Shown here in pieces: positions 30,775-63,205 of a stretch of DNA of 64,000 nt (position 1 is its first letter; each line of letters starts with the position of its first letter). A program made the position numbers and the translations under genes. Under the pieces are notes generated by a model. The model had not been told where the DNA came from. It worked only from the letters and a program-made list of their open reading frames with translations, and did not search any database. This DNA is from Anadara kagoshimensis (Eukaryota > Mollusca > Bivalvia > Arcoida > Arcidae). The stretch is from NCBI GenBank assembly GCA_021292105.1, contig CM037869.1:7066204-7130203 (forward strand), written 5' to 3'.

Positions 30775-30795
30775 AAGTATAGACTTAACGGGTAT

Positions 30796-38661: not shown

Positions 38662-38706
38662 ATTAGAATCATTTTAAAAGCATTGACAATAATATCAAGA
38701 CTAAAG

Positions 38707-38891: not shown

Positions 38892-39011
38892 CACGTACAT
38901 TTCTCAGATTTAAGATGGTGAACATTCCTTAAATTATTCTAATTTATTAACATATTTTGATGTCTTTATAAACTGAGGTTTTCGGTTCGATTTCACCACA
39001 ACTGTGTTGGC

Positions 39012-39494
39012 TTGCTTAGAGACATGATTTATGACATAGACGAATTCATGAGCAAAATGAAACAAGTTATGGTAGACGAGGATTCAGATGTAGACAACAC
39101 CAGAAGATGTCTAAACCTATATAACTTTATATATAGTGTGGAGATTGAAAAGAACTTATTTCTCACAGCCATGGAGAATTGTTATGGCTGCCAAATTGAC
39201 CATGGTAGTCAAAAACAGCATGACTGTATCATGTTAGATCGGGAGACTCAGTTGGATCTATATTTTGAACAAACTCTAGACAGAGTGGATGAGTTTGATG
39301 TGATAGAGGACTGGAATATAGCAGTTAGGTGTACAAATATACCCGACTGTTTTATAGATAACTTCGTTCTTTTTCTACAAAATGATGTTTGGCGGAGGGA
39401 GCATTTACCCAAAACCCAAGAATGGAAAGATAAACAACATGAAGCAGTGAGAAGATTGATTCAACTAAAACGTGTTGTTGGTGATGGACATTAG
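39012..39494 (+). CDS. Polinton hypothetical protein, 160 aa
   Basis: Acidic, helical protein starting MLRDMIYDIDEFMSKM, with a possible metal-binding patch CYGC...HGSQKQHDC in the middle (about residues 57-72). The ORF lies between the TIR and the integrase, same strand. A frame-compatible weak donor (GTTG|GTGATG) near 39,479 and an acceptor (TCACTTTACAG) at 39,706 would splice it onto the integrase start; this is only a possibility. I cannot assign a function. Confidence 0.5.
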   Translation: MLRDMIYDIDEFMSKMKQVMVDEDSDVDNTRRCLNLYNFIYSVEIEKNLFLTAMENCYGCQIDHGSQKQHDCIMLDRETQLDLYFEQTLDRVDEFDVIEDWNIAVRCTNIPDCFIDNFVLFLQNDVWRREHLPKTQEWKDKQHEAVRRLIQLKRVVGDGH

Positions 39495-39706
39495 ATGTAT
39501 TTTAAATTATGATCTCGATGAATTTTAAGTGGAGAAACTTTTATACAAACTATCTAATGAGAAACTTTTGAAAGATTTGTTTTATCTCAGTGAAATTATT
39601 TAAATGGAAAACTTTTGAAAAACTTGTCAGTTGAAATTTGACAGTGTAACTTATTACTGTATCCAAATACTACTTCATCTATTCATTCATTCACTTTACA
39701 GATAAC

Positions 39707-41157: not shown

Positions 41158-41564
41158 GTTTATATGTTACATTTAGTAGTGATAAATCTTTGAATTTTTT
41201 CCCACAAAATAAGTCATATAATTTTAAAACACATCTGAATACCCCATTATTTTTGGAGGGTATGTGGAAAGTAGCACTGGTAGACATAGACATATCATCT
41301 TCATCTCAAAAATCAGAAAGATTGTACCTGTTTTCCAGCATATGTGGTGAATCAATTGTCGAAGGGGAGAAGAAACCACTTCTACGTCGTCTAACATTAG
41401 AAAAGTCAAACACTGTACTTCAACACCTACATTATGTTCCTGTAAAAATCAATACAATTTATGATATAGACATCTATATAAAGGATAGAAACAATGATTT
41501 TGCTTCATTTCTCAATCAACCAGCAACGATAACACTTCACTTTAAGTCATTTCCATTTTTTTAA
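41154..41564 (+). CDS. Penton-like minor capsid protein
   Basis: 136 residues beginning MSLYVTFSSDKSLNFFPQNK, then FLEGMWKVALVDIDISS and a terminal ITLHFKSFPF. The YVT...PxN...LEGxWxVAL opening and the LHFK ending are the pattern of the small Polinton capsid protein found beside the core and major capsid genes (single jelly-roll, penton). All beta, no membrane segment. Overlaps the integrase stop (ATGA) and is 3 bases before the core gene. Confidence 0.65.
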   Translation: MSLYVTFSSDKSLNFFPQNKSYNFKTHLNTPLFLEGMWKVALVDIDISSSSQKSERLYLFSSICGESIVEGEKKPLLRRLTLEKSNTVLQHLHYVPVKINTIYDIDIYIKDRNNDFASFLNQPATITLHFKSFPFF

Positions 41565-41566
41565 AA

Positions 41567-42049
41567 ATGAGTTTTAAACATTTATATATTCCTAATCCTC
41601 AAAAGTGGGTGAAATATTATGAAAATACAGGAAGTGGCAAACATAATCCATATGTACAGCATATGAGTGGTAGAGGATTAAGTCATCAAACTGGAGGTTC
41701 TATCTCTACAAATTCTAGAAGGTTTATGGTTCCGATAGATCAGCATGTCTCAGAAGTTACACCAAACAACATGTCTGACAAGGTGACACTCCAGATGGTT
41801 TCACCAACACAACAAACAATTGATCAAGCTAAATCTGAAATTCATCGACACAAGAAGGGTATAAAAAGAAAAACAACTACATCAAGAGGTAGTTCAACGA
41901 AAAGACGTCGAACAGTCAAGAGGTCTCCTAAACCACATAAAAAATCTCTGAAGAAAAGACCAGTAAAAAAAACTAAAAAAACCAAGTCAAAATCTGTAAA
42001 ACGGAAATCTAACAAGAAAAGAAACTCATTGAAGGAAATTTTTGTATAG
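41567..42049 (+). CDS. Basic core/genome-associated protein
   Basis: 160 residues. The N-part has IPNPQKWVKYYENTGSGKHN, QHMSGRGLSHQTGGSI and MVSPTQQTIDQAKSEI. The last 65 residues are extremely basic (about half K/R, runs such as KKRPVKKTKKTKSK) and serve as both nuclear signal and DNA-condensing tail. Position between penton-like and major capsid genes fits a virion core protein, analogous to adenoviral V/VII/X in role, not necessarily in descent. Confidence 0.65.
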   Translation: MSFKHLYIPNPQKWVKYYENTGSGKHNPYVQHMSGRGLSHQTGGSISTNSRRFMVPIDQHVSEVTPNNMSDKVTLQMVSPTQQTIDQAKSEIHRHKKGIKRKTTTSRGSSTKRRRTVKRSPKPHKKSLKKRPVKKTKKTKSKSVKRKSNKKRNSLKEIFV

Positions 42050-42051
42050 TC

Positions 42052-43380
42052 ATGGCAGCATTAACAACGGAACAGTTTCAAGAAGCACAACCAAGCAGTC
42101 TCAATTTATTTTCACTCCCTCCAACACAAACTGCCATAGAAAAGGTTTATTTTCAAGAAGTTAGACCCATTTCACAACTAACAGGAAACAATACTCCGAT
42201 AGAATTCATCATAAGTGGACAGAATGGAATGGAGTATATTGACATGAAAAGATCGAAAATATATGTGAAAGCAAAAGTTCAACATTCTGATGGAAGTAAA
42301 TATCTTTCCACTGAATTTGTCGGACCTTCAAACTTGCTGTTACATTCCATGTTTTCACGATGTGACGTCACTCTTCAAGGAAAAACTATAACCTCGACAA
42401 CAAGTCATTATCCATACAAAGCCATGATTCAGACATTATTGAAATATGGTTCTCAAGCAAAAAAGTCGCAATTAACATCACAATTGTGGGTAAAAGATAC
42501 ACCGGGACATATGGATGATAACGACGTGGAAAACGGTAGCAATACAGCTCTATATGAACGTGCACAGCTATTTAATGGTGGGAAATCAGTGCATATGGAA
42601 GGACCCATTTTACATGACTTATTTAGTTTGGATAGGTATCTGCTAAATCAAGTGGCTGTGAGTGTGAAGTTTTACAGATCGAAACCAGAATTCTATTTAA
42701 TGACAAGTGAAACATCTCCAGACTATGAGATTTTTATAGAGGATATCTGTCTGAAAGTCTGCAAAGTTCAAGTGAATCCAGCTGTTATTTACGGTCAAGC
42801 AGAAGTGTTAAAGCAAACTAATGCTAAGTATCCATATACTAGAACTGAAATAAAACAAATTTCAATACCAACTGGACAGATTTCTTGTGCTTTTGACAAC
42901 TTATTTCAAGGTCTTAAACCAAACAGAGTAGTCATTGCATTTGTTAAATCTGAAGCAGCTGCCGGGTCATATGCTTTAAATGGATATAACTTTCACCACT
43001 TTGATTTGAGTCAAATCGGTCTATTTGTGGATTCTATTCCCGTATCCGGCAATGTTATGAAACTAAGTTATGATGCAACCTCTGGAGAAACAACCATACC
43101 TGCCTTCATACAAATGTTTGAAGCAACTGATAAATGGTTATGTGATACAGGAAATCAATTAGACAGACATGATTTGGCTGGTGGTTATGCACTGTATTGT
43201 TTTGAATTGGAACCCAGTTTTGGCGAAGGCGGTGACTATTTAACCTTATTAAAGCAAGGCAATGTGAGACTAGAAGCACAGTTTAGCAAACCACTACCAA
43301 CGCCAACAACGTGTATCATATATGCAGAATATCCTGGGTATTTTGAAATTAACAGTGTAAGAGATATTATAGTAGAATGA
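42052..43380 (+). CDS. Major capsid protein (double jelly-roll)
   Basis: 442 residues, intact, beginning MAALTTEQFQEAQPSSLNLF. Blocks I associate with the Polinton capsid family (C. elegans F54H12.2-like): LTGNNTPIEFIISGQNGMEY, LHSMFSRCDVTLQGKTIT, YPYKAMIQTLLKYG, GRAQLF-like region ERAQLFNGGKS, LHDLFSLDRYLLNQV and the ending IIYAEYPGYFEI. Predicted to form hexon-like trimers of an icosahedral shell. It begins 3 bases after the core stop and shares ATGA with the protease. Confidence 0.85.
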   Translation: MAALTTEQFQEAQPSSLNLFSLPPTQTAIEKVYFQEVRPISQLTGNNTPIEFIISGQNGMEYIDMKRSKIYVKAKVQHSDGSKYLSTEFVGPSNLLLHSMFSRCDVTLQGKTITSTTSHYPYKAMIQTLLKYGSQAKKSQLTSQLWVKDTPGHMDDNDVENGSNTALYERAQLFNGGKSVHMEGPILHDLFSLDRYLLNQVAVSVKFYRSKPEFYLMTSETSPDYEIFIEDICLKVCKVQVNPAVIYGQAEVLKQTNAKYPYTRTEIKQISIPTGQISCAFDNLFQGLKPNRVVIAFVKSEAAAGSYALNGYNFHHFDLSQIGLFVDSIPVSGNVMKLSYDATSGETTIPAFIQMFEATDKWLCDTGNQLDRHDLAGGYALYCFELEPSFGEGGDYLTLLKQGNVRLEAQFSKPLPTPTTCIIYAEYPGYFEINSVRDIIVE

Positions 43381-43850
43381 ATACCTTACAACTTAATTGT
43401 GCAATAAATTCAGACAGACACATGAAGATATCAATTAAAGGTGTTTATGCAGCTGATGAAATCAACAAATTATTGTTATCAAGATCGGAAGGAATAATTG
43501 TAAATTCACAAACACATTATTTTTATGGTGAACATTGGATTGTCATATATATAAATGAATTTAATGTATTAGAATATTTTGATTCCTTTGGAAAACATCC
43601 CAAATATTTATCTTCTTTGATTTGGAACTTTGTGAAACAATATTCAAAGCGTGTGATTAATGATCAAAGAATTCAAGGTACAGAATCAACTGTATGTGGA
43701 CAATATTGTCTGTTTTATTTAATGTGTCGGACAAGAGGATACACTATGCAAGATATTGTTAAAACATTTTCTAACGATTACACATCTAATGACACATTTG
43801 TATATAAATTTATTGATGAAAGATTTTTGTATTGTTTGAGTCATTTTTAA
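43377..43850 (+). CDS. Adenain-like capsid maturation cysteine protease
   Basis: 157 residues. Catalytic His53 in GEHWIVIY, Asp69 in EYFDSFGKHP, a glutamine near 100 and the nucleophile Cys111 in CGQYCLFYLM: the order and spacing of adenovirus-type (ULP1/C5) proteases. It cuts capsid precursors during assembly. Length slightly short of adenain (about 200). The start overlaps the capsid stop. Confidence 0.88.
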   Translation: MNTLQLNCAINSDRHMKISIKGVYAADEINKLLLSRSEGIIVNSQTHYFYGEHWIVIYINEFNVLEYFDSFGKHPKYLSSLIWNFVKQYSKRVINDQRIQGTESTVCGQYCLFYLMCRTRGYTMQDIVKTFSNDYTSNDTFVYKFIDERFLYCLSHF

Positions 43851-44030
43851 TTATTGTAAAATAAAACTAAAAAGTCTTATGGTTTAATAAAATGCTTATT
43901 TTAGAAATTTAATTTTTAATATTTTTATTTAAAGTGGGAGCAAACAATTATAAAACTTAATTTTGAAAGATAGAATAAATATAGAATACCTTTCACTTTA
44001 AAGTCATTCTCTGTTATTCATTCAACAAAC
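43851..44030 (+). promoter_or_regulatory. Gap and likely promoter before the ATPase gene
   Basis: 180 AT-rich bases, the first real gap after five tightly packed genes. A TATAAAAC box lies at about 43,949 and AATAAA-like sequences follow the protease stop, so this is a probable transcript boundary. Confidence 0.4.
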
Positions 44031-44702
44031 ATGGATGCTTGGTGGCAGCAAGAAAGTCTGTTAAAATTTGAATCTCCAACTAGCATCTTTGTTGTGGCTC
44101 CAAGTAATTCTGGAAAAACTGTTTTAGTGAAAAAGATGTTAGAACAAGCTGATGGTGTGTTTAAATCACCACCAAAAAAGATTTATTTTTGTTACAGTGT
44201 TTGGCAAAACATTTACACTGAAATGGAGCAAGACATTTTAAACATACAATTCCACAAAGGTTTACCATCAATGGAAGAACTCACTGAATGGGGGAGTGAG
44301 GAAGGTCATAAAATCATTTGTTTTGATGATTTAATGACGGAGTTAGCAGATAAAGAGGAATTGGGACATATTTTCTGTGTGGGTTCTCATCACTATAATT
44401 TCACAGTAATACACATTTTACAAAACATGTTTCAAAAAGGCAAGTCCATGAGAACTGCTTCTCTAAATTGTCATTATTTCATTTTATTTCGCAATTTTCG
44501 AGATCAGCTACAGATACAAACCCTTGGAAAACAAATGTTTCCCGGCAATGTGAAATATTTCATGGATGCTTACCGTAAAGCTACCGAAAAACCATATACC
44601 AGTCTTCTAGTAGATTTAAACCCACACAGCAACAAATTGTATCAGTTGCGATCCAACTTCCTACCTGGACAGGACACAATAGTATACCAACCCCTAAAAT
44701 GA
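44031..44702 (+). CDS. A32/FtsK-HerA-type genome-packaging ATPase
   Basis: 223 residues. Walker A APSNSGKT (about 23-30), Walker B IICFDDLM (about 93-100), a sensor region with HILQNMFQKGK and DNA-packaging family block HYFILFRNFRDQLQIQTLGK. It powers DNA entry into the capsid. The length is typical for Polintons, intact. Stop overlaps the next start as ATGA. Confidence 0.88.
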   Translation: MDAWWQQESLLKFESPTSIFVVAPSNSGKTVLVKKMLEQADGVFKSPPKKIYFCYSVWQNIYTEMEQDILNIQFHKGLPSMEELTEWGSEEGHKIICFDDLMTELADKEELGHIFCVGSHHYNFTVIHILQNMFQKGKSMRTASLNCHYFILFRNFRDQLQIQTLGKQMFPGNVKYFMDAYRKATEKPYTSLLVDLNPHSNKLYQLRSNFLPGQDTIVYQPLK

Positions 44703-45007
44703 AGAGAAACATTCACAGAAGTTTCATTGAATTCCTAGCTTCAGCAACGTCACAACAGACTGGACATATATTGCAAATGACAACAAAAGGTCAGTTACAA
44801 ATGCTAACTGAAATTGTTTACAATGTGCTCAACGGTGTCTGCCACATTTCTACAAGAGATAAAAATATACTGAGCAAACACAAAAATGCCATTCGCAAGG
44901 TGGTGTCAAGAGGGATAACATTAAGTCAGCGAAGGAAGTATCTTGTTCCATTAAACTATAGTTCATTATTAAAGTTCCCATCTATAGTTCCCATATTTAA
45001 GATATGA
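44699..45007 (+). CDS. Conserved small Polinton protein, 102 aa
   Basis: Helical and basic. TTKGQLQMLTEIVYNVLNGV and KHKNAIRKVVSRGITLSQRRKYL resemble a small ORF commonly placed after the ATPase in animal Polintons, function unknown. ATGA overlaps on both sides. Confidence 0.5.
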   Translation: MKRNIHRSFIEFLASATSQQTGHILQMTTKGQLQMLTEIVYNVLNGVCHISTRDKNILSKHKNAIRKVVSRGITLSQRRKYLVPLNYSSLLKFPSIVPIFKI

Positions 45008-45402
45008 GTCGGGAGTTAATTCTGATACCGAAAGTGAAGTGGGAACAGATGATGAAACAAATTGATAACAAAGAGGATACACCGTCAGAATCAAAACAAA
45101 CTAAATCCTATACGGACGAGAAGTATAATGAAGACAAAAGTCAACAAGACAAAACCAATAATTTAGAAAACAATTGTGAGGTGACAAGAAAAAGTACCAA
45201 AACACATGAGAAAACAACACAAGACATGGATATAGATGAAAATGAAAAGAAAAATTTTAATGTGAATGAAAGCAAAGCTGATAATATGCAAACAGGAAAA
45301 GGACAGTCGTATGTGCAGATGAAACCAAAAACATTTCTGAAATTAAAGGACAAACATAAAATGACATATAAAAGAAAAAAATGGTTATCATTTCCATTGT
45401 AA
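45004..45402 (+). CDS. Hydrophilic Polinton protein, 132 aa
   Basis: Starts MSRELILIPKVKWEQMMKQI, then a long disordered K/E/N/T-rich middle and a basic end (FLKLKDKHKMTYKRKKWL). No domain recognised. Last gene of the ATPase cluster. Confidence 0.45.
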   Translation: MSRELILIPKVKWEQMMKQIDNKEDTPSESKQTKSYTDEKYNEDKSQQDKTNNLENNCEVTRKSTKTHEKTTQDMDIDENEKKNFNVNESKADNMQTGKGQSYVQMKPKTFLKLKDKHKMTYKRKKWLSFPL

Positions 45403-45831
45403 TTACTAATTATACCAGTATTAAGTTTAAATTTGTATTTATATGATTTGAGAATTTGCTAATGTAATTTTTGTAAATAAATTTATGAAAAATTATGTTG
45501 TTTTGGTTTAATTTGATATGTATGAACATAAATTAATAACACAGAACTCACATATTTAGAAGTGTTATGGATAACCTGTGGAATAATACACATTTTAAGA
45601 ATGGAATGTGAATATCACATACCTGACATATTTACATGACTTAAGAATGGAATGTAGATCTTGCATACCTGACATATTTACATGACTTAAGAATGGAATG
45701 TAGATCTTGCATACCTGACATATTTACATAACTTAAGAATGGAATGTGAATATCACATACCTCACAGTTTCGTAACTTATAAATAAAAGTTTACAACACA
45801 ATTTATTTGATTCCATGAGTGTACTTTCATC
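45403..45831 (+). promoter_or_regulatory. Polymerase promoter region with four 46-bp tandem repeats
   Basis: From 45,595 to about 45,768 the unit TTAAGAATGGAATGT...CATACCTGACATATTTACATGAC repeats four times at exactly 46-base spacing. Two variants, GTGAATATCACAT and GTAGATCTTGCAT, are arranged A-B-B-A. A TATAAATAAA box follows at 45,779, about 53 bases before the polymerase ATG. Probably an upstream activating array. Confidence 0.65.
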
Positions 45832-48800
45832 ATGGCAGATAGGTTTGTTGACCATCTGAGAGAGGAATATCCAAATGGAAACCTTAAATTAGAAAATGAA
45901 CTCCGACGTCTGAAATCAGCCTTGGACATTTATGATAGTGAAAATGAACAAAAACCAATTCATGAAAATATGGAAATTGACCAAATTGAAGCAGACCCTT
46001 TCAGTGAATGTGATGAAGAAATGCTCTGTGAGGTAGCTGCTAAGACTGAAGCTGAATATTTCAAGGGAAAAAAGTCTAAAAATAGTGGATTTAAATGTAT
46101 GCTTTGTCAAAAAATATACAAGTCAAAGAAACAACAGCATCGCCATATGAAAACACATTGCTTGTCTTACACTTGTTCATCTTGTAATAAGACTTATGCA
46201 AAAAAGTGTTCATTGAAAACTCACCAAAAGCAGTGTAAAGCTTCAAATAATACTTCCGATGGTGAAAATTCAAGAAACTTAATTTGTAAGCATTGTAAAT
46301 TACCTTTCATGGATTATACATCCTTATTTGATCATGTGGTGGAAAATCATCCAATTCAATCAGGTGGAAACATCTCCAAGAAACCAACACATGAAAAGAC
46401 AAAAACATCTGTCACAGAACCTTCTGCTATAAATGAAGAAACAAATACATCAACCAATCAAGATTACAAGGATATAAAACAAAATAAAACTTCTTCTACA
46501 TCAGCTTTAAACAATAATGCAGAAATAATAAGTATTTACCCAAATGATACACAAAAGTATGACTTGTTGAGATTTTATGCAGATTTAAAGCCAGATATCT
46601 TGTTTATGTTAAGACAAAAACGCCAAAAATTTCGTCAAATAAAGTGGTACTTTAATACAAGAATAAGAATGGTGCGTGACTTAGAAGATGGAACACAAAA
46701 TCGCATCACAACTCATTTTCGGAGTAAAACATACATTTCATTGGAATCGGACAATAATGAACATAACATAAATGAAGCTATGCAAAAAATGAATGCTAGT
46801 ATGGAAGAATTTATTCATAAGGGATCAAACTGGATCATGGATAGGGTAGAGCACATAGAAATATGTATTTTACCATACTCACCATTACATGGATCTAGCT
46901 ACATGGAATTGCCCTACAGAATTAAAAATGCCAAAGGTGTTATCAACATCAAAAACAACGACCAGAAGTGTTTCTTATGGAGTATTTTGGCTGCTATACA
47001 CCCTGCAAAAAATCATCAAGAAGAAATTTATCATTATAGACAATATGAAAATGAACTGAACATGAACAATATTGATTATCCAGTACCATTATCAAAAATG
47101 GACTTGTTTGAGAAATTAAATCCTATGATTTCACTCAATGTGTTTGGTTATGAAGATAATGAAGTTTTTCCTTTGTATTTATCAAAAAACGGTGATGGTA
47201 TCTATGAAATAGATCTACTTTATTTGAGTGCTGACAGTAAATCCCATTACTGCTATATCAAAAACTTAAATCGATTTCTTAGTGTGACAAAACCAACTGT
47301 AAATAAACAAAGATATTTTTGTCGTCGCTGTCTGCATGGATTTACAAGACAGGATTTGCTCAAGGAACATTATTTGTATTGTAAAAAATTTGATTTTCAA
47401 AAACTGAAATTTCCAGAAGAAGGAAAAAATGATTTGTTAAAATTCAGTGATTACCATAAGCAAATCAGAGTGCCTTTTGTCATTTATGCAGATTTTGAAG
47501 CTTTGGCTACCAAGTATGACTCTTGCTTGCCTAATCCAAATAAATCTTCTACTACACATCAAACCATCTTTGATCCATGTGGTTATGCATATCAAGTTGT
47601 TTGTGCAAATGATAAATATTCAAAGCCACCAGTTGTCTACAGAGGATTAAATGCTGCAACACATTTTATAGATCAAATTATGGAGGAGGAAATTTATATC
47701 AAAGAGAAACTTTCAAATCCAGAGCCTTTGATAATGAATAATGAAACCGAATTTCATTTTCAAAATGCTAAAAACTGTCACATTTGTGGAAAAGTGTTTA
47801 CTGCAGATGATATTAAAGTTCGAGATCATGTTCATATAGGGTTGAATGATGATATAAATTCACCTCTATATTCAAATTATAGAGGTGCAGCTTGTCAGGC
47901 ATGCAATTTAAATTTGAAAGAGCCAAATTTTATTCCTGTTATTTTTCACAACTTGGTTGGATTTGATTCTCATCCTTTGGTTTTGGCTTTGTCCAAATAC
48001 AAAGAGAAAAAATTGAACTGTATCGCCAAAAACATGGAAAATTATATATCATTTTCACTTGGAGATTTGCGTTTTATTGATTCTTATCAGTTTATGAGCA
48101 GTTCTTTGGAATCCTTGATTTCAAATTTGTCCAAAGATGGACTTGAAAACTTTCAACAATTTCGTAAATTTTTTACCAATGATGAAGCAAGACTTTTATT
48201 ACGGAAAAATGTTTATTGTTATGATTACATTGACAGTTTTGAAAAATTCAATGAAACTCATCTACCACCCAGAGAAGGTTTCTACAATAAACTTAGAGGT
48301 GAACCTATATCAGATGAAGATTATCAACAAGCTTGTGATGTTTGGAACACTTTCAATATGAAAACACTAGGTGATTTTCATGATCTTTATGTTCTAACTG
48401 ATACTTTATTATTAGCAGATGTATTTGAAAAATTCAGAACTATGACACTGTCTTATTACTCGCTAGATGCATGTTGGTTTCTGACAGCGCCCGGTCTGAG
48501 TTTTTCAGCTGCCATGAAGAAAAGTAATGTGACACTGGAACTGTTAACTGATCCTCTCATGTACAACTTTTTTGAATCATCAATGAGAGGAGGAATAAGT
48601 GTTATTAGTAAAAAGTATGCAAAAGCAAATAACCCTTACATACCAGAATCCTACAACTCTGAACAACCAACATCATATCTTATGTATTATGATGCTACGT
48701 CATTGTATTCAAGTGTCATGGGAACACAAAAATTACCAACAGGATTGTTTAGGTGGCTGAATCATCAAGAAATGGACAGTTTTGATGTTAAAAACATACC

Positions 48801-51161
48801 TAAAGATGGAGACAAAGGATACTTTTTAGAAGTGGATTTGATGTATCCAGAATATCTTCATGATGCTCATAATTCTTATCCATTAGCACCAACTCACAAG
48901 ATTGTTAGTGATGATGAGTTATCTCCTTACAGTGACAAGTTATGGAAACAGTTATTTGGTAAACAAAGAAGAGTAAAAACATCTAAACTGATTCCAACAC
49001 TACAAGATAAACCAAATTATATTTGTCACTATAGAAATTTACAGCTTTATTTAGAACTTGGATTGAAAATTAAAAAAATCCACAAAATATTGGAATTTCA
49101 CCAAAGTGCATGGTTGAAAGAATACATCGACTTTAATATTGAAAAAAGAAAAGAGGCCAAAAACGATTTTGAGAAAGATTTTTTCAAGCTCATGTGCAAT
49201 TCGTAAGTACAATGTCATACATTTATTTTTGAAAAGCTATTACTTGTTTTCAATAGACTCAGAATTTATGAATTAAATACACAGCATAGCTTAAAATATT
49301 AGTCAAACAACTTAGTGTTTAACTTAACCATCTTACCAGGTTAATACATTGCTGAAAACTCGTACAATACTCTCATTTCGTTGTCATTTCCATTATCTTT
49401 GACTTTGCAATAACGGCTGCATTCGTCCTTCTTTCTATCCGGAAGTTGTGGAAAAGTTGTATTGGAAACGAAATAACCCGGAATGAAGGAAATCCCTCCA
49501 ATTTTAGAGCACCGCTTGTATGTTACACCTCACTGTTGCGATATTCGACAGCATGTATTTACAAAAACTTATACAATTTTATTTTTCAGTGTTTTTGGTC
49601 GAACCATGATGAATTTGAGGAACAGGGTTAATATCAAACTAGTCAATAATGAAAGAGCACTAAAAAAACTGGTAGCCAAGCCCTCCTTTGAGCGATTCCA
49701 GATTTTCACTGAAGATATGGTTGGCGTGGAAAATAAAATGACGACGTTATTTATGAATCAACCAATATATGCAGGTAATTAAATTATGTTCATTGCTAGA
49801 AAAATTTATTTTGCAGGTTATATGGAGGCTGTTTAACCAACTAAAGATAAAATGAGACCGGGATTCGAATCCGAAATTATTTTTGCACTAAGTGTCTTAC
49901 AAACTGACACAAGTATTATACAGAGAAATTTTCTTATTCATATTCTATGCAATATTTTCAGTCTTTGTAAAATTTTACTGGAACGTTAGATCATCCAGTT
50001 AGCACGTTAGTAGCTTTACAATTCAATTTACATTTCAGGTGCCTCAATTTTGGAATTGTCAAAAGTCAACATGTACGAATTCCATTACAAAGTGATGCAA
50101 CCAAAATATGGATGGCAGAACATTAACGTTCTTTTCACAGATACGGATTCTCTCGCATACGAAATTTTTACGGAGGATGTGTATAAGGACATGATGACAG
50201 ATGGACATTTATTTGATTTTTCGAATTATCCAAGAGATCACATGCTGTATGATGCAACTAACAAGAAAAAATTATGTACATTTAAAGACGAATGTGAAGG
50301 TATGTATTAAGATAACAACTTAGAATTGGGTTAATACTAAAACTTTATTCATTTGTAAAATGTTACAATCAGATGTAAATATCTTCATAAGTTCGACATT
50401 AATATTTAACAAACAATCATATCCTTTATATAAACTCCGCATAATTAAAATATCAAAACGCAAAAATGTCCACGAATAATTTGAAAATTGTGCAATTTAG
50501 AATTGAAGTTGAAACAGTTGGAACTAAATTTATGTGAATTTTTATTTGAATTACATCTGTCATTTTTAAAAGTAAAAGTTAAAAAAAAATAGTGTGACAT
50601 TTTTGTGTTTTCTTCAAAATACATAAAAGTATATAAATTCCAATATATGTATTGTATATAAATTCCAATATATGTATTGTATATAATCAAAATGTTAAAA
50701 TGTATATAATATATAATTACATAATTATGAAATCATGTTTTGATTTGACAAAATGTTGGACAATAATATGTCCTTCGGATAGATTCCTATATTATAATCA
50801 GAAAAACAATATTTTCAAAATGACAAAACTTTTATGTATTTTAGGAAATCCTATCAAAGAATTTCTTGGCCTTCGGAGCAAGATGTACTCCTTAGTGTTT
50901 GCCGGAAATAAACAGAAAAATACAGCAAAAGGAATATCTAAATCAGTGATTAAAAAATCTTTGAGACATGCCAAATATCGCGAATGTTTATTTCGCAAAA
51001 AAGTGAAAAAAAGTGTAATGAATTTAATTCGGTGTAAAAATCACAAGCTTTACATGGACTGTATTGTGAAGACTGGATTATGTGCTTTTGATGACAAGCG
51101 TTATGTGAAAAACAATAAAATAGAAACAATGGCTTTCGGGCACTTTAGAATAAAAAATTAA
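45832..51161 (+). CDS. Protein-primed DNA polymerase B, four exons
   Basis: Exons 45,832-49,202, 49,590-49,774, 50,039-50,299 and 50,845-51,161 (1377 residues). All three introns are GT-AG and keep phase (TC|T, G|GT, G|GA). The N-terminus has three C2H2-type fingers (about residues 85-175) and another at about 497. The exonuclease has YADFEAL (about 553), HNLVGFDSH (about 706) and TDTLLLADVF (about 858). A zinc-bound HNH-like insert (CHICGKVF...VRDHVH...RGAACQACN) sits at about 650-690. Polymerase motifs are A DATSLYSS (about 955), B CNSVFGRTMM (across intron 1) and C TDTDSLAYE (about 1219). It replicates the Polinton DNA. Unspliced, it would look like four broken ORFs. Confidence 0.9.
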
Positions 51162-51166
51162 AGATT

Positions 51167-51202
<36 letters not shown>

Positions 51203-51468
51203 TTCTGTCTATTTGTAAATTTCTTATCTTCTCTATCTTTCAATCTTTCTCCTATTCGGAGACAATAAAAATAAGGAGACTTTTATCATTTATATCGAGA
51301 GTTGTCTTTTGTTTGAGATATAAACCATATACAATGTGCCAGTCGACATTTGTCATCTTATATATTTGAGAGATATCAGTTAACATTTATCTCGAAATCT
51401 CCAATAAAGTTCTATTATCAGTCACCATCATACTACAAAATGCACTACCAGTTAAACATAAAAACTGT
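51162..51468. other. TA microsatellite and terminator region
   Basis: About 16 TA repeats at 51,168-51,200. AATAAA at about 51,264 can end the polymerase transcript. Confidence 0.5.
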
Positions 51469-52256
51469 TTAATATGGTACAAGAAATTCTGACATAAAGT
51501 TATACTCCTCTGACAACTTTGACTTCTTACAATTCTCCACTGGTTCCGATTTAACGGGACGTCTAAGGGTAGAAGACACAGAGCTACATGATGCAGAACT
51601 ACATGTAGATGGTGTAGAGCTAGATGGTTGATATGGTGGAGGTGGTGTTTCCATTGCATTGACTGACTGAGAGGGATTTTCATAAAAACTGCAAAATTCT
51701 TCCCTTTTATCCAATCTCTAAAATAAACGTAGGAAAGCGTACGTTTTATATTCAAATGGTTTAGACAAACGTAAATGACTGCTAGCAAAAATTTCACGAT
51801 TAACGACAAAGCAAAATTTATTTGAACCTTATAATTATTTTTTAAAAATGTTTACGGTTCTTTTATGGAGTATGATATTTGCGCAATGTATTTCAAAGGA
51901 TAAGGATTTTCTCACAATTGTATATGATCAAACTTAATTCCTGTTTTTCATTTTAAATGTCTTATATAATATTTACGATTTAGGAAGAAACTGGTTTGAT
52001 TTACCTCATTTATTCTTTCCATCCCCATTTCCAGAGTAGGTCTTAAAGCTATCAATTCGTCAAGTTCATCAAGGCCTAAGCCAATCCTCGCCGTGCTTCT
52101 CTTCCCATTTATTGTTGAATTGTCATAAATATTTACAAAAAAGTTATTTTTACCCTTTACTAAAACCCATGCTTTGTTCCGTCCGAAGTTACTTCTCATT
52201 TCAATTTTTTTTCCATCACTTTTTTCAATAAGAATTGGAAGTTGAGCTTGAGCCAT
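51469..52256 (-). CDS. Polinton cargo gene, two exons, PPPPY motif
   Basis: Minus strand: exon 1 is 52,256-52,005 (start MAQAQLPILIEK; donor AATGAG|GTAAAT) and exon 2 is 51,717-51,469 (acceptor TTTATTTTAG), phase 0, 166 residues. The first 75 residues (AWVLVKGKNNFFVNIYDNST, RIGLGLDELDELI) have the strand-strand-helix layout of PC4-like single-strand DNA-binding coactivators, a weak resemblance. Residues about 105-135 are Ser/Pro/Thr-rich with PPPPY, a motif that binds WW domains and acts as a late-budding signal in enveloped viruses. Function unknown. Confidence 0.65.
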
Positions 52257-53076
52257 AGTGAATCGTGAGAATTTATAGAATAGCAAAAATCTAACTTGAT
52301 CAATTAGAGAGCACAATATGCAGACTGATAGCAAAAATCTAACGTGTTAAGCCTGTATTAGATTTACTGACCAATAAAATTGAAGGATTTTGGCGCTTTT
52401 TCTACCATAGAGAAAGCACGTGGTTTTAAGAGTGTTCTTAGTCATTCCCACGTAAATGAGGATGGCTAAGTTGTTGTCAATCAAATTTAAGAACGTGTTA
52501 GGTATTAATTTGTGAATTTATCTGCTATTATGGCCTTGAACGTTTACATTACGCATTATCTACGATTATGGCCTTGAACGTTTACATTACGCATTATCTA
52601 CGATTATATCTACGATTATGACTTTGAACGTTTACATTACTATGGCCCTGAACATGAAAACAATATTGCAAAAGATGAATATGAAATTTCTAAATATGTT
52701 GCACATAGTATGCTTGCATTTAATCTTTTAAACTTTTGTTTTTAAATTTGTCAATAAAAAAAAACCAATGACACACCACCTTACACCTTTTTGTTGACGC
52801 TGACCTAGCTAACCTTACAATTAAATATTTTTTTTTTTAAAATGAACAGGTAAATAACTTAAAACCAGAAGTCCATTAACTATAATGGACTTCTTTTAGG
52901 TAATATTTATATATATTTATATATATATATTTATATATATCCTATATCTTTTTAATCACACACACACACCCACACACGCTCTCTCTCTCTCCTCTCTCTT
53001 TTAACCCGAATCACTCATAACTGAGCACTGGTTCCCTCCCTTTGATAAAGTTGACCTTTGTACTTTCTGAGTGTGC
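52257..53076. promoter_or_regulatory. Divergent intergenic region with tandem repeats
   Basis: Lies between the starts of the minus-strand gene and the plus-strand membrane gene. CCTTGAACGTTTACATTACG with CATTATCTACGATTATGG repeats in tandem (about 52,530-52,640, three copies, about 39-base unit). A TATA-rich tract (52,908-52,940) and CA/CT repeats (52,961-52,998) precede the membrane gene. Confidence 0.5.
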
Positions 53077-53458
53077 ATGATGGCGGCAATCGTTGTTTTG
53101 ATTTTAATGCTCAGTTTGTTACAGGTCACTTGTAACAAACTGGACTTACACACTTGTAAAGAGGAATTCCATGTCATAAGATTGTTTTGTCGTTTCAACG
53201 GAGGTGGACTTCATGATTTCAAAGGAAATGGGAGATGGGAAAATGTCACGTCTTTGTTTCTCGATCGTTTAAATGAAAGTAGTGTGATGATGGCAGAGGG
53301 AAAAGCATTAGCAACAATTGCGATAGAGACCGGGACTGTTGATCTTTGTGGTAGAGTTATTTGCAAACCTGAAGTAAGAGTAACGATCGGAGGGAAGCTT
53401 TGTGTAAGATTTTTTACGAGTCTTCAAATGGACTATTCCAGTAATACTCTGAAAGCTA

Positions 53459-53499
<41 letters not shown>

Positions 53500-55060
53500 A
53501 AAAGTTAAAATTTTGAAATTCATCCAAAACTAAGGTATGCTGCCTCGTGCAATGTATTTTCTTAGCTGGATTGGTAAAATATATTTTTAGTCCTTTGGAC
53601 AATTTTTTTTAATCTGCTTAAAAAAATTAGGTTTCTACATTTTTGGTCTGAGCACTACTGACGAGGAATTGTATTCCGAAACGGTCGAATTAAAACGGGT
53701 ATAAATAAAATACATGTATTTATAAGCATTAATCATGAAACTATCAGTATGTTTTGACTATATAGTAAGTCATTTTCTACACACTACTAATTATTATTTT
53801 GATTATTTTATAGTCTACACGTCAATCGATTATACCAGATAATCAAAACACCAAACAACAGAACCCTAACAATAAGAAGACAACTTTGAATCAACTAACC
53901 ACAGAAAGAAATATTTATAGATCTACTACTAAATCATTTGGTATCTCCCTTGCTACTTTCTTGAATTGGACAGCTAATGATAACGATACTACAACTACAG
54001 TTACAAGAAAAACATATGAGGTATTATAACATTCAAGTTATGCATCATGTTACATTCAGTATGCTAATTGAGATTAGTGAATGTAAAATACCGGCGTACA
54101 AATTTTGCTTACACCATTATAGCAATCTCCAACAATAAATGTTATATACACCACTTGATTAAGATTTTTAATCACATTAAAATGTTTCTCCACACGTGTG
54201 TGTACAGGTTTAAAAATATTCAACATTCTGTTGTTACTCATATTGCATTTGAATATCCCGAGTTTGGTGGGGGTGTGCAGGGTGAATGTGGTTCTTCAGC
54301 AACTTCACTTTCTTCATGACCACTTTCATCCTGGAAGTTATCATCCGAGTCATCATCTGATTCTTCATATGACTGGTATTGGAAGTTTCTTTTCTGAAGT
54401 TCCATCCTATAAAGAAGTTTATTTATTTATTTATTCATGTTTTTTTTATTGTTCCCAGAAACTAAAAAAAAAGGGGGGGGGGTAAGTCAGATGCCAAATT
54501 ATTTATTTATTTAGCATTTGCACTCGAGTCATAAGGAACAAACATTGATACAAGTGTGAAACAATTGTTAAAAAGAAATAATACAAAATGTAATACAACT
54601 GCGTCCAATACGAAAATCACATAATCGGTGATATCTAAAGTTAAAATATTTTTGAGTATGAGCAAAGATTTTAATTTTATGAATGTCTATTGTTTTTTCA
54701 GACTTCAATGGAGTCATGGTTTAAGTGGATTTATCCAGTACTAATTGTGATTGCAGGTAAGAAAACTAACATAATTGCTTACTTCAGTAAAGATTATATT
54801 GTGAAATATGTAATGGTTAAATAAGGAAGTTATTATAAGTAAATAAGAAAGTTGTTATAAGTATTACAGTTGTATCATGAAGTTTTCCTAATTTATATCG
54901 ACTAAAGCGAATAACAGTTTGATTCTCTCTTTCAGTGTTTCTAATCATCCTAGCCGTTTTTTACATCTACAAGTGTAGAAAGGGGAGAAAAACTACTTCC
55001 TTAACACGAGCCATCCAGCTGAGTGAAATTTCCATTCAACCACATCTTCATAGTTCTTAA
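53077..55060 (+). CDS. Type I membrane glycoprotein, four exons (isoform a)
   Basis: Exons 53,077-53,403, 53,814-54,020, 54,702-54,756 and 54,936-55,060; all GT-AG, phases 0, 0 and 1, 237 residues. A signal peptide (MMAAIVVLILMLSLL) is followed by an ectodomain with six cysteines after the signal region, N-glycosylation sites (NVT, NES) and a Ser/Thr/Asn-rich stalk (exon 2). A membrane helix spans the exon 3/4 junction (WIYPVLIVIA + VFLIILAVFYIY) and is followed by a basic tail (KCRKGRKT). Topology suits a surface receptor-like or envelope-like protein. No fusion peptide or known family recognised. Two further last exons follow. Confidence 0.75.
53112..53142 (+). repeat. Perfect 12-bp hairpin in the signal-peptide codons
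   Basis: CAGTTTGTTACA, a 7-base loop, TGTAACAAACTG, inside exon 1 just after the hydrophobic core. Confidence 0.7.
53534..53705 (+). repeat. Hammerhead-type repeat, copy C, in intron 1 of the membrane gene
   Basis: Plus-strand, diverged copy of the 1.9/12.2 kb repeat. Stem I 5' strand AGCACTA, core CTGACGA, stem II GGAATTGTATTCC and GAAA are intact (53,651-53,681), but the 3' strand of stem I and part of stem III are deleted, so self-cleavage is not expected. A run of about 33 T's lies just upstream (53,463-53,495). Confidence 0.7.
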
Positions 55061-55815
55061 AAACTGAAATTTTTATTTTCAATATATTTCAGTGCTGGTG
55101 GTGATTTGTTGTGCTTTGATTATTTACAAAAACAGACTTCGAATACAACTTTTCACTAGACTTTTCACCATGTTGTTTTACAGATAACATAATTTTTGAT
55201 ATTAGAATAAGAGACACTGAATTATAACTATTTCAGGTATTGTGCAAATTATCATCATCATAAGGATTGTTAATGTGATACACATAAGAATTTACCAACA
55301 ACGTGAAAACCCTGTAGTTGTTCCACCTCATGTTCCTCCTCAACCTACCACCCCCTCAACACCTATACAATCCAGCAAGCCTACTTCTTCTATGCCATGT
55401 AGGGAAGTACATCAAAATTTAAGAAGATCTCAGCGTACAAGGAGAAATGTGGATAGATTTTCATATTAATATTGAACACTTACCGTTTTTTCATGGTATT
55501 TTTGACCAGTGCCAAGACTTTCATTCCATATCTTCTGTTTGTAGATCGGATATTCTTTGCAATTGCATATAGCTTTTTTAGCACAAGACTGGTTTTAAAC
55601 CAAAGCACTAATTTTGCTTTTGACATTGATAAATGTACTATGGCATGGTAAGTGCTTATTATGTCATCTCTCAAATCTGTACATCTTCCTGGATATTTTC
55701 TGATTTCTTCATACAAGGCTAAAATTTCAGAGTGAAGGTGGACATCCTGGTAACAAAGCTTGCACTCATATTCTAAAGGATTAAAATAATTGAAGCTGGA
55801 TACCGAAAAAGACAT
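54238..55815 (-). CDS. Antisense cargo gene interleaved with the membrane gene
   Basis: Minus strand: exon 1 is 55,815-55,484 (start MSFSVSSFNYF; donor AACG|GTAAGT) and exon 2 is 54,406-54,238 (acceptor TTCTTTATAG), phase 2 (CG|G), 166 residues. Mostly helical and basic (YEEIRKYPGRCTDLRDDI, KLYAIAKNIRSTNRRYG), then an acidic tail (ESDDDSDDNFQDE) and proline-rich end. Exon 2 sits inside intron 2 of the plus-strand gene, and that gene's three last exons sit inside this gene's intron. No family recognised. Confidence 0.65.
55093..55469 (+). CDS. Alternative last exons b and c of the membrane gene
   Basis: Exon b is 55,093-55,187 (acceptor ATATATTTCAG) and exon c is 55,237-55,469 (acceptor ACTATTTCAG). 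Both join the exon 3 donor in the same phase as exon a, and both begin with a hydrophobic segment that completes the membrane helix (VLVVICCALIIY; IVQIIIIIRIVNVI). Tails differ: b is short and basic (KNRLRIQLF), c is 60 residues with VVPPHVPPQPTTPSTP and RRSQRTRRNVDRFSY. Each ends in its own stop. Full isoforms would be 227 and 273 residues. Confidence 0.7.
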
Positions 55816-57483
55816 TTTTTCTCAACTGATTCTTTACATATTTCAGTTCAGTTTTAACCCTCCCCAGTTGGATCTTAAAATCTCTACCCTTGATGTCTTT
55901 ATTTAATTTTGTATTTAAGTGATAGGTCATGACAGTTGAGGGGGTTTGGTCTCCACGTTTATTTGTATATATCATTATTCATGTGTAGAATTTACTGTTT
56001 ATTTAGTAAGTATCTAAAAGTTACTTCAGTTGTTGGATTTTTATTGTCATTTTTAGTTATCTTTTTTCTCCCATCCTTATATGCAACAAATGTGTTAACA
56101 TACAGTATAAATTTTGTATCAGTTATATTTAGTGCAATTTTTCAAAAGTGTCAGTTATTAGTTTTTTTTTTTTCTGTTTGATGTGTTTATTCAGGAAGTA
56201 ACAAAAAGTTATAATTTAGTTTTTAATATCATTCATGTATCTAAAAACCTATTTTGGAAAATACACTCAGATAATGTTTTATAAGACTTTAACATATTCA
56301 CTTCACTTGTCATTTTTATGTCTTTGACTAATGATTACATGTATAATGTACCTGTATATCGTATAAAGCTTTAAGCTTTTGTAAATGAAAATACTCGGTA
56401 TCAATATAAATGCTCAATGATTTACATACTCAGGGAATCAGTATCAGTGTAATGCTCAATGTTTTACATATTCAGGGAATCAGTTTCAATGTAAATGCTC
56501 AATGTTTTACATACTCAGGGAACAGTCCTATATGTTCTATCAGTCTTATAAATGCATTCCATTACATAACACTGTTGTTTATGTTGTATTAGATAAAAAA
56601 ATTATAAATGCGAATTGTTGAAAACGTTGTCCTTTGTTATATATGTGTAGCTATGTAATTGTTATAGTTTTTATGAAAATATTTATGAATCAGAATGATG
56701 CAGGTTTTATTAATTTATTGTGATTTTTGATGATTTATAGTTCAAGTTTTGAATAAATAAAGAATTTGTTATAAATAGGAAGTCGTTTCTTTACACTAGC
56801 AGAGTCTTGAAGTGACTGATAAAGCCATGTTTACTCTTAAGCTTATTTCATGTTTATGTCATGGAGTTATCTTTGAAATTCTCCTAGTTAAAGCTTTATC
56901 AGTTTAATTTCCCACAGTTTAATACCAAATCTATCTTGTTTCTCAAAATTTAATATTTAACATTATATTGAAAGTAAACTTATGCTTCCTACTTTGAGGT
57001 TCTCCAATTCTAAATTGCCTTTATTATAGAATGCTTTACATTTACCTTACTTAGTTTGTTAGTCTTGTAATTATATATTGTGTTATATCAGAAATATACC
57101 AGGGCAAGACCTTTTGATGTGTTGACATTGGACAGAAATACATTTGTTATACACCGATTAAAATTGGTCAACCTCCCAAAATGGAATCACATTTAATATT
57201 TTAATGTCTCAGTTAAGAATTTCTCACTTATATTGATATGTTACAAGCTGAAAATGAAAGAAAACATAGAATACAATCTTAAAATGGGAGAAAGCAATTA
57301 ATTACTGCATAGTTTTAAGTTTGAATTTATGTAAAATCCATTAAAGTATTTTTCAACTTGACCAGATCTTGTTTCACAAAATTCACTAACAATAATATTG
57401 TTAGTTTTTATCACTCCCACTCAAAATGATCCTAAATTAAATTTAAATACTTTGGAATTCCAACAATTTCCTATGCATTGTGC
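55816..57483. repeat. Right end of cargo zone; three 50-bp tandem repeats
   Basis: ATGCTCAATG.TTTACATA.TC AGGGAATCAGT.TCA.TGTAA repeats three times at 56,408-56,525. AATAAATAAAG at about 56,752. Otherwise AT-rich, no gene seen up to the right TIR. Confidence 0.55.
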
Positions 57484-57706
57484 GAAATATTTAAATATCT
57501 ATGGAATGTGGGGGTACCTATGGAATGTCAGCCATCTTTGTATTTAAGGAATGTCTTTGGTATCTAAGGAATGTCAGCCATATTGTAATCTCAAGAATGT
57601 CAACCATCTTGTATCTAAGGAATGCTAGGTATCTAAATACCCTGGAATCCTCAGGGGTACCTGGGCACCCGGTACCCCTCCCAGAACCAGACATTCTTCT
57701 ACTACT
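57484..57706 (-). repeat. Polinton right terminal inverted repeat
   Basis: 223 bp, ending ...CATTCTTCTACTACT, followed at once by CCCCGA (57,707-57,712), the second copy of the target duplication. Confidence 0.95.
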
Positions 57707-58242
57707 CCCCGATTGGTTCCTGGTCGATTATTGATTCTGCAATCTGCCATACCAGTGCAGAAGCCCACATCCTTTCATTGTGTCCCAATACATCTGAACA
57801 TCTATGCCTATATAACATACATAAAGACAGAAAGAAGGAATGACTAAGAAAGAATGGAAAATTACTCAAAAACAAACTAAAAAAAGTTATACTGAACATC
57901 ATATATAATGTTAACAGTTAGGCATCCTGGTCTAAAACTTGTTATACTTATAAAGTTGTGCTTGGATTCAAATATTATTTAAAAATCAATAATAATAATA
58001 ATAATAATATTTTGTTATATACTATGGATAACAATGCACAATATTTCAGTTTACCAACATAGTATTATTTTGTTATTATAATCTTTAAAGGCGCATAAAA
58101 ACTTGACGCTGATAAATAAAGATAACAGATCTTACCAGTCCCGCAAGTTTTTGTGTTGCCATCTGCTACAGGAGTCACAACAAAGTGCATGTTGTTTTGG
58201 TTTTACTGTCTTCTGACAAGCGATGCACCCGTTTCCAGGCAT
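57707..58242 (-). CDS. PHD-like/FLYWCH gene: exon 1 and first part of exon 2
   Basis: Minus strand: exon 1 is 58,242-58,136, starting at the ATG of MPGNGCIACQKTVKPKQHAL and containing CDSCSRWQHKNL, a PHD-like CxxC...CDxC..W.H zinc pattern; donor GACTG|GTAAGA. Exon 2 starts at 57,807 (acceptor GTTATATAG, phase TG|G) and runs into the Polinton insertion point; its remaining 19 bases lie at 38,432-38,414. This gene structure (N-terminal zinc module, then FLYWCH) resembles MULE-related proteins. The insertion separates exon 2 halves by 19 kb. Confidence 0.72.
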
Positions 58243-61847: not shown

Positions 61848-63205
61848 CAGCATGGTGACATAAGTTTTTCCGTTTTCGGCCATTTTGAATTCACCTGAAA
61901 AAAAATCAACAGGAACTAATTTAAAGACTTACCTGTTGTTCTGTATACGTATGCTTTAATATTTTGTAATATAGCCCTTTGACCTTATTACTTTCTGTAG
62001 GCGTCTGGAAATGGATGAATATAGGTTCTGGATGTAATTTAAATTAAGAGATCTCCAGGTGTGAAGCAAAACGGCTTTAAGATCATCGACATGCCGGATA
62101 GTTTGAATTTGTTTTTTCACATGATTTTTCATGACAAGCCAGACATTTTCTATTATATTCAAATCCGGTGACTGAGCAGGCCAGGGAAGACACGGGAATT
62201 AAATTTCTTTCCTTCCAGGCTTTTGTAGCACGGGAGGCATGACACGGAGCATTGTCATCCTGGAATAAGTATGGTCTATTAGGCAAATGTTTCATTACAA
62301 CCTGCCATAAATTGTCATCAAGTGTCTCAATATATTTTTCACTTTTCATGTTACCATTTACAAATGTCAAAGGTCCAACACCATAAAATGTAATGCATCC
62401 CCAAACCATAATAGAAATACGTTGACCCCTGTACTGCTGAATATGGCCTATACATTCTGGAAGGTAGGCTTCGTTTTTTTTCCTCCAAATTTTTACAAGT
62501 CCATCTCCACTAACAATTACCTTCATTTCATCCGAAAAAATTACATTTTTCCAATTATTGTTAACTGTCCATCTTAATCTGTTTTTACACCAATGAACAC
62601 GTCGAACCCTGTTAACCTGCCGGACCCCCAATTTTTTACGAATGGAGCGCTTTCTCAGACCATTAGCGTGCAAAACTCTCTGAATTGTCCTTTTACAAAC
62701 ATTCACCGTACTCACATGATTAAAATTGTTAGTAATATCAAGAAGTGTAGATGTACGATCCTCCCGAAGTACCCGTTCTAAGTGTCTAATATTCCTGTCA
62801 TCCATTTTTCTAGGCCTCCCACTTCTCGGCAAATTTTCTGAAGTTTGGCGCTGTCCGTGACGTTTTAAAAATTTCAACAGTGTGGAATAATTAATTCCTA
62901 AAAAATCTGCAATTTGTTTTTTTGAAAGGCCCGTGTTAAGTAGCTGGACGATATTTTGTTTCGTCTCGGATGACATTTCCTTCCCCCGGTTGGCCATTGT
63001 TTACAAACTGTCGCTTCCTGTAGAAAGCAGGCGAGACCTAAACATCCGGTTGATAAGTAGGTCAGTGGGTGCCGTAGTTACTTTTAAAAACGCCCCACTT
63101 TTTATTTTTCATTAAAACGGCGTAAATTTTTTGATTTATAAAATCAAAGTGAAAACAATAAAATTCAAAATGGCTGAAAACGGAAAAACTTATGTCACCA
63201 TGCTG
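61848..63205 (-). mobile_element. Second Tc1-type element, 44-bp TIRs, TA target
   Basis: TIRs 61,848-61,891 and 63,162-63,205 with one mismatch (outer end CAGCATGGTGACATAAG), TA on both sides (61,846-61,847; 63,206-63,207), 1358 bp. Different TIR sequence from the 5.7 kb element, so a sister family. Confidence 0.92.
61956..62997 (-). pseudogene. Tc1-like transposase with one frameshift
   Basis: MANRGKEMSSETKQNIVQLL opens a paired HTH region (LLKFLKRHGQRQTSEN, GRPRKMDD). VIFSDEMKVI and LFQDDNAPCHASR hold the two aspartates. Near 62,193 the frame shifts one base, just before the third catalytic residue, which is found in the following frame (NIIENVWLVMKNHVKK). The rest ends GYITKY. One lesion in 347 codons, not in a homopolymer, so probably a true inactivation. 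Confidence 0.9.

Follow-up and report, generated by a model that had tools for sequence, protein, structure and literature searches.

A Polinton-borne gene for a predicted membrane protein with three putative alternative last exons in the bivalve Anadara kagoshimensis

The E3 region of adenoviruses is spliced and variable, and it consists of a set of separate genes. One of its products, E3/49K, spans the membrane at the cell surface and binds CD45 (PMC11321000). Membrane-acting proteins have also been proposed for Polintons (Mavericks) and an adintovirus: nematode Mavericks (Widen et al.) reportedly encode a putative fusogen that is structurally similar to viral fusogens (PMC10680173), and one adintovirus encodes candidate envelope glycoproteins (PMC11071296). 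The molluscan genomes analysed in PMC10294476 contain Mavericks. Intact vertebrate Mavericks are described in PMC8097293 as intronless, with terminal inverted repeats (TIRs), 6-bp duplications, and two gene modules; at the time of that study, Polinton viral particles were unobserved. Here we describe a gene for a predicted membrane glycoprotein located at the right end of a Polinton of A. kagoshimensis. The analysed stretch ("the window") comprises 64,000 nt (C13:7066204-7130203 of the 1.115-Gb genome), and copies elsewhere are designated as numbered places (L009, etc.).

The product would resemble adenovirus E3 proteins (CR1 family, E3/49K) in being a membrane protein from the accessory region of a DNA virus. 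However, unlike E3, the glycoprotein has no CR1 match at E<=5, and a single ectodomain would be combined with three alternative last exons rather than being encoded by separate genes. Like the nematode Maverick fusogen, it is a membrane-acting extra gene on a Polinton/Maverick, but its ectodomain is modelled as a small solenoid, and no fold of the kind described in PMC10680173 is present among the matches listed. The element shares TIRs, 6-bp duplications, and two gene modules with the vertebrate Mavericks and belongs to the same class; in contrast to those elements, described as intronless in PMC8097293, three genes look split here, namely that of the glycoprotein, PolB, and an antisense gene. 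Such a three-tail Polinton gene is not described in the titles or abstracts of the 10-20 best-ranked papers per literature search, in a collection lacking most subscription papers.

We favor the reading, with a probability of roughly 0.6, that the right arm is an exchangeable host-interaction module, which encodes a small type I protein with three-way splicing of its tail and is used in an E3-like manner. If this is true, a self-synthesising transposon contains a conserved, spliced membrane-protein system, which lies outside the intron-free picture of vertebrate Mavericks given in PMC8097293. It would suggest that Polintons contend with their hosts at the cell surface, and the triple cassette would provide a direct test of the infectivity of the element, through the tail that enters particles and the ligand of the ectodomain.

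Exon anatomy of the glycoprotein gene

In the window, the gene is on the plus strand. Exon 1 (53077-53403) begins with an ATG at 53077 that opens a hydrophobic leader, the predicted signal peptide, and continues into an ectodomain with four invariant cysteines; it ends in phase 0 at a donor, GTAAGA, at 53404. Exon 2 (53814-54020, phase 0/0) encodes a Ser/Thr-rich (Ser/Thr/Asn-rich) stalk. Exon 3 (54702-54756) encodes juxtamembrane residues and the first half of a membrane helix, and it ends in phase 1 (CAG/GTAAGA, with the donor GTAAGA at 54757). The first-pass annotation had proposed that this donor can join any of three acceptors, each leading to its own half-helix, cytoplasmic tail, and stop. 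The sequence contains the stated sites: the acceptors at 54936, 55093, and 55237 are all in phase 1, matching the donor, and each exon encodes hydrophobic residues, then basic residues, a distinct tail, and a stop. Exon 4a (54936-55060) supplies the second half of the helix and a short basic tail with the family C-terminus IHSHSS. Exon 4b (55093-55187) supplies the second half and tail b, whose family motif around FDxR is out of frame here and in L009; in both copies the distal half of the tail is in a different frame from the proximal half, and relatives with an open tail b exist. Exon 4c (55237-55469) supplies the second half, a Pro-rich tail, and a basic C-terminus. Judged exon by exon, the leader, the stalk, and one split hydrophobic segment followed by basic residues predict a type I membrane protein.

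The four phase-consistent exons proposed earlier have the sites and phases claimed for them, except that exon 1 ends at 53403 rather than 53373. A donor at 53374 was considered as the main end of exon 1 and rejected, since conservation extends past it to 53404. In 9 of 17 copies, one of them the window, the codon for the last conserved Cys is followed by a phase-0 GTAAG, which places the window donor at 53404; this donor is a few codons later in L010 and L014, and it is in a shifted frame in L020 and L021. The corrected exon remains in phase 0 and gains one Cys. Four cysteines are invariant among 10 aligned copies. Glycosylation of the ectodomain is only a prediction: sequons are predicted in exon 1 of the window (two) and of L009 (one), but they are not conserved, being found in 2 of 8 exon 1 sequences, both from the window lineage, and in none of the 6 other copies examined. 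The conserved trait is instead the Ser/Thr-rich stalk. Phase 0/0 stalk frames are present in the window, L009, L013, L017, L019, L020, L021, and L023; only shorter frames are seen in L011 and L012, and none is convincing in L010, L018, and L022. Ser plus Thr make up 30-41% of the five stalks examined, a figure helped by the scan, which ranked frames by S/T/N/P/Q content.

The proposed product would thus consist of a signal peptide, a Cys-bearing ectodomain of ~85 residues, a Ser/Thr-rich stalk, and a single membrane helix. The single donor, located past the first half-helix, would be spliced to one of three competing acceptors, yielding isoforms that share the ectodomain and the outer half-helix and differ in the inner half-helix and cytoplasmic tail. 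The ectodomain may bind a host surface or immune ligand, as in adenovirus E3, while the tail would set the destination or the contacts of the complex (membrane, endosome, virion, or budding machinery). The acceptors contain 11-14 (a), 10-13 (b), and 6-12 (c) pyrimidines in 15 positions. Since the most pyrimidine-rich acceptor is at a and the poorest is at c, the proximal tail a is probably the default and tail c may be a regulated choice. There is no AATAAA or ATTAAA between window exons a, b, and c, the next being at 55780 and 56752; thus, one 3' end could serve all three. In L017, however, an AATAAA is located between a and b.

Copies of the gene and conservation of the tails

The ectodomain exon has matches at 17 places when the window is used as query, 23 with L018, and 25 with L023, for a total of 28, all of these counts being lower bounds. 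Twenty-six places, including the window, were read (7 kb each for L042-L050); outside these are an opposite-strand fragment inside L047 and a fragment at C13:7269855. The tails were surveyed by searching each copy with single-exon peptides. The exon order is kept (ectodomain, exon 3 with the half-helix, a, b, c), and all three tails are recognisable, despite exon 1 identities of 25-52% between lineages, at 14 of the 26 places (window, L009, L011, L012, L013, L016-L023, and L044), although several are damaged. All three tail exons are present in order at 13 of the 17 places of the first search (window query). Consequently, the interchangeable tails proposed for the window represent a triple cassette, with predicted splicing, that is kept across diverged copies.

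All three tails are open in L011, L017, L018, L022, and L023. Elsewhere, L012 carries an interrupted tail a and L021 one with an altered end, tail b is truncated in L019 and contains a stop in L020 and L044, and the frame of L013 is broken both within exon 3 and within tail c. In L016, exon 1 contains a stop, the AG preceding a is missing, and c is partial. The exon 1 donor is lost in L017; exon 1 is shifted in L020 and L021, both of which have also lost the AG before c; the AG before b is lost in L022; and in L044 neither the AG preceding a nor the end of c remains. L010 contains tail a with a truncated b, and L045 contains exon 3, a, and a c-like exon found by scan. Exon 3 is present without tails in L014, L024, L048, and L049, and exon 1 alone is seen in L015, L042, L043, L046, L047, and L050. 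A second, decayed pair of tail a and tail b, apparently from a further lineage, lies 3' of the first cassette at L044:6588-6857. In L010, L014, L015, and L024, the ectodomain exon is preceded, at a distance of a few kb, by TIR-like sequence, and no core gene was detected in the stretch read; these are possibly internally deleted elements that retain the glycoprotein arm.

The splice sites recur with the exons. An AG is present at the homologous phase-1 acceptor in 13 of 14 copies for a, 13 of 14 for b, and 9 of 13 for c (the L013 match to tail c starts inside the exon). A GT closes exon 3 in 15/15 copies, as GTAAG in 14 and GTAGG in L023. Each tail also has a recurrent C-terminus: IHSHSS-like for a, FD[ICV][RQ] for b, and a basic sequence for c (e.g., RRSxRxRRxPDRLSY or RYPRRARxxxDRxNL). 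The only match to the tail c ending pattern within the window is exon 4c; we take this ending to resemble the C-termini of long terminal repeat (LTR)-retrotransposon polyproteins.

Recognition of the tails was also measured using leave-one-lineage-out profiles, in which the tested lineage is excluded from training and 20 shuffles of one copy serve as control. In 6/6 lineages, tail a ranks first and exceeds the shuffles. Exon 3 ranks first in 5/5, with L018 alone scoring less than the shuffles. Tail b ranks first in 4/5 and fails in lineage E (7.2 versus 13.4 bits). Tail c is clear in 3/5 (W, F, and G) and not in E; in lineage C it is recognised in L013 only (18.8 versus 9.8 bits), with L011 and L012 at 7.4. 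When the window lineage is left out, the window scores 31.6 bits for exon 3, 22.7 for a, and 18.7 for c, compared with best-of-20-shuffle scores of 14.1, 9.1, and 7.4 bits. Tail b of the window lineage, owing to the break in its frame, served neither for training nor for testing, and the distal part of window tail b is matched by tblastn in another frame (E 2.7e-6).

Silent sites are saturated in many pairs of copies. Among the pairs that have all exons, L022-L023 is the least saturated; its ratio of nonsynonymous to synonymous change (dN/dS) is 0.22 for exon 1, 0.41 for a, 0.20 for b, and 0.26 for c (Fisher p = 1.6e-8, 0.048, 2.9e-4, and 2.7e-5, respectively). This codon comparison shows purifying selection on each tail in that pair. 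Other computable, really diverged pairs have values of 0.20 to 0.72, the weakest constraint being that of tail c in window-L011 (0.72) and tail b in L011-L016 (0.53). Near-identical pairs give values around or above 1 from a handful of changes, as expected for decaying copies.

Considered from the window sequence alone, the case for three tails is weak. A scan that requires an acceptor, phase 1, hydrophobic residues, and a basic tail finds two sites (a and b) in the 0.5 kb past the donor and six in 114 kb elsewhere in the window, missing tail c; a looser scan has seven window matches, five of them elsewhere, and misses tail c too. Until conservation is considered, this counts against the reading that we favor. 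However, the possibility raised with the original proposal, that exons b and c are random, unconserved frames, is ruled out for the tails by their recurrence in diverged copies, the leave-one-out profiles, and purifying selection (dN/dS of 0.20 and 0.26 for b and c). The tails were also compared as possible duplicates of each other; none is recognisable as such, since profile comparison gives 32% probability for a-b over 14 hydrophobic/basic columns and nil for the other pairs.

A quite improbable alternative is that a single tail, probably a, is used, the other two being left over from older exons or serving as last exons of minor noise transcripts. Several of the observations above favor it and weigh against three-way splicing: tail a is the best conserved in the leave-one-out tests, its acceptors are the richest in pyrimidines and those of c the poorest, b is broken in the window, and the acceptor AG has been lost for b (L022) and for c (L020 and L021). 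On the other hand, b and c are more constrained than a in L022-L023, and six lineages retain the exon order and phase, each tail having C-terminal motifs.

The read copies are found on only 3 of 36 contigs (16 of 26 on C3, 9 on C13, and 1 on C16), and 9 of the 25 copies other than the window have no Polinton neighbor in the stretches read. This distribution, together with the resemblance of the ectodomain models to leucine-rich repeat (LRR) receptors discussed below, would suit a host receptor family that was captured as Polinton cargo and still serves the host, or a domesticated remnant. We consider such an origin very improbable. Polinton core pieces (PolB, the 50637-frame, adenain, or ATPase) lie alongside 10 of the 25 other copies; L042 is an eleventh, its core pieces being those of L017; five more have right-arm neighbor genes; and no intact stand-alone copy was recognised, though none was sought systematically.

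Replacement of the right arm and nature of the ectodomain

L009 is ~95-100% identical to the window throughout. L011-L013 are 91-99% identical to the window DNA, in 250-nt steps, from 47.25 to 51 kb, with the exception of the 49.75-kb step (68% in L011 and L012, 87% in L013). Identity in L012 and L013 is 82-84% in the 51.0-kb step, and alignment ends at 51270-51271; the L011 piece ends earlier than 51.27 kb. Past ~51.27 kb, alignment is limited to patches of 66-71% (the two steps holding tails b and c) and to the TIR in L013. Right-arm proteins of the window and L011-L013 are 34-38% (ectodomain), 42-57% (51951 gene), and 40-41% (55486 gene) identical. Introns and spacers are also completely changed, which favors block replacement over fast mutation. 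Thus, by comparison of these copies, the right arm, consisting of the glycoprotein and its antisense neighbors, has been replaced as a block between elements with cores 91-99% identical in DNA.

Exon 1 of the window has no match to a Pfam family at E<=5, and hence none to CR1 or LRR (the filters drop most matches above ~0.1), and none to PDB sequences or to a set of 5.8 billion proteins. An alignment of 8 of the 17 copies (near-duplicates and broken or partial copies being left out) finds only P0121 in this set, an 89-residue match from a 3.3-kb contig, which equals the lineage C exon with translation continued into the adjoining intron. According to two AlphaFold models, exon 1 encodes a short solenoid with a folded part of ~85 residues. 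Judged by their titles, ~31 and ~39 of the 50 structural matches listed per model are LRR proteins, at low Z, so the models suggest a weakly LRR-like solenoid. LRR receptors such as GPIb-alpha, TrkA, and VLR have an ectodomain on a stalk with a membrane anchor, and the fold of the model is weakly similar to theirs. The receptor-like function suggested by the first-pass annotation is therefore weakly supported by LRR-type structural neighbors, but not by an LRR sequence match.

The same annotation had suggested an envelope-like function, which finds no such support. The corresponding alternative, which we judge unlikely, places the protein on a membrane-wrapped Polinton particle as an envelope or attachment protein of the virion, with one tail (e.g., c) docking to capsid or budding machinery and the others directing traffic. 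The element retains virion-type genes (the adenain-like and ATPase frames), and precedents are available in the accounts of a candidate adintovirus envelope glycoprotein (PMC11071296) and a putative nematode Maverick fusogen (PMC10680173). Short motifs provide leads only, as chance is possible: a PTAP in tail c of L011 and L012, and a PPPPY in a neighboring minus-strand frame (51472-51717), which overlaps a right-arm open frame (51390-51851, minus strand). The PPPPY is a motif of the PPxY type. The PTAP is confined to one lineage, however, and an ectodomain of ~85 residues is far below the size of known fusogens. The fold matches listed for the exon 1 models include, at noise level, a human immunodeficiency virus (HIV) Env 26 peptide fragment (E 4.0) and a chain of a human cytomegalovirus (HCMV) gH/gL/gO complex (E 6.3); these matches include no other spike or fusogen. 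An E3-like role seems more likely to us than that of an envelope protein, given the small ectodomain, the position of the gene in an exchangeable arm separate from the virion genes, and the failure to find anything resembling a fusogen.

A fuller version of the E3-like reading is possible but more tentative. In it, the gene would encode a tail-switching receptor on a swappable arm, with a diverging ectodomain and regulated 3' splice-site choice among three anciently kept tails leading to three cellular fates; perhaps the antisense gene, in whose intron all three acceptors lie, would modulate the choice. This gene (54238-55815, minus strand) has an exon at 55484-55815, a donor at 55483, and an exon at 54238-54406, with phases that agree, and its intron encloses glycoprotein exons 3, 4a, 4b, and 4c. 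Relatives of its first exon, 29-41% identical, are present in L011-L013, L017, L020-L023, and L044. Its acidic, C-terminal second exon was found elsewhere only in L009, and a scan of eight copies for it found none.

The Polinton and its surroundings

The element spans 38439-57706 (19.3 kb). It is bounded by 223-nt TIRs that are mutually 100% complementary, the left at 38439-38661 (plus strand, beginning AGTAGTAG) and the right at 57484-57706 (minus strand), and these are flanked by a 6-bp target-site duplication, CCCCGA, at 38433-38438 and 57707-57712. The element is a Polinton, given the TIRs, the 6-bp duplication, the integrase, and PolB; the glycoprotein gene is thus Polinton-borne, as first proposed. 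The integrase core (39970-40260, plus strand) matches rve (PF00665, E 1.3e-12). Directly after it, a dispersed repeat (40273-40592) interrupts the integrase frame, and the C-terminal part follows at 40576-41154 (plus strand), with a below-cut-off match to the chromodomain (PF00385, E 1.3e-4). A plus-strand frame at 42013-43377 occupies the position of the major capsid protein by gene order alone, having no family match. It is followed on the same strand by an adenain-like protease (43353-43847; PF00770, E 0.009, below cut-off) and a packaging-type ATPase (43974-44699; AAA_22, E 0.029, weak and below cut-off). ATPase copies 96-98% identical to that of the window adjoin L011, L012, and L013. In contrast to the glycoprotein copies on three contigs, 150 scored ATPase homologues of the wider class are spread over many contigs.

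The main PolB frame, with an N-terminal C2H2 finger, is at 45811-49203 (plus strand), and further plus-strand pieces are at ~49583-49778 (DNA match only), 50014-50307, and 50637-51158. The gap preceding the 50014 piece is 811-905 nt in L009, L011, L012, and L018, which suggests that PolB is split by introns rather than by damage. Among the best 120 of 3036 matches, PolB relatives are 45-63% identical over 65-100% of the query; some are named DNA polymerase or bear PF03175, and those from animals belong to Mytilus, Pinctada, Mizuhopecten, and Pecten, with a few others named as bacterial metagenome-assembled genomes (MAGs). Viral contigs contain no match to the capsid frame, PolB, or exon 1 of L012. 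With PolB as query, bacterial and archaeal contigs yield a single match (45%), in the Spirochaetes MAG contig JAKSBL010000194.1 (L041), which is probably animal DNA contaminating the bin.

The 51951 gene (51951-52346, minus strand) lies antisense to and upstream of the glycoprotein gene. It is found at 16 places, at 12 of which it is antisense and 0.5 to 4 kb upstream of a glycoprotein copy. At two further places, near L042 and L043, the gene shares the strand of the ectodomain exon and lies ~1 kb past it, and the helix and tail exons were not found there. It occurs without the glycoprotein at 2 of the 16 places; a hidden glycoprotein at these two, where the ectodomain has no match, was considered and not borne out on inspection.

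Other mobile sequences are also present in the window. An LTR retroelement at 23247-34406 has 267-nt LTRs that are 100% identical and encodes gag, protease, reverse transcriptase, and integrase, together with a PHD finger (29971-30774) and a TatD-type DNase frame (31869-33527, E 4.6e-25). The Polinton is flanked by Tc1/mariner-type transposase frames and a reverse transcriptase frame (5805-6899, 16831-19134, and 62083-63000).

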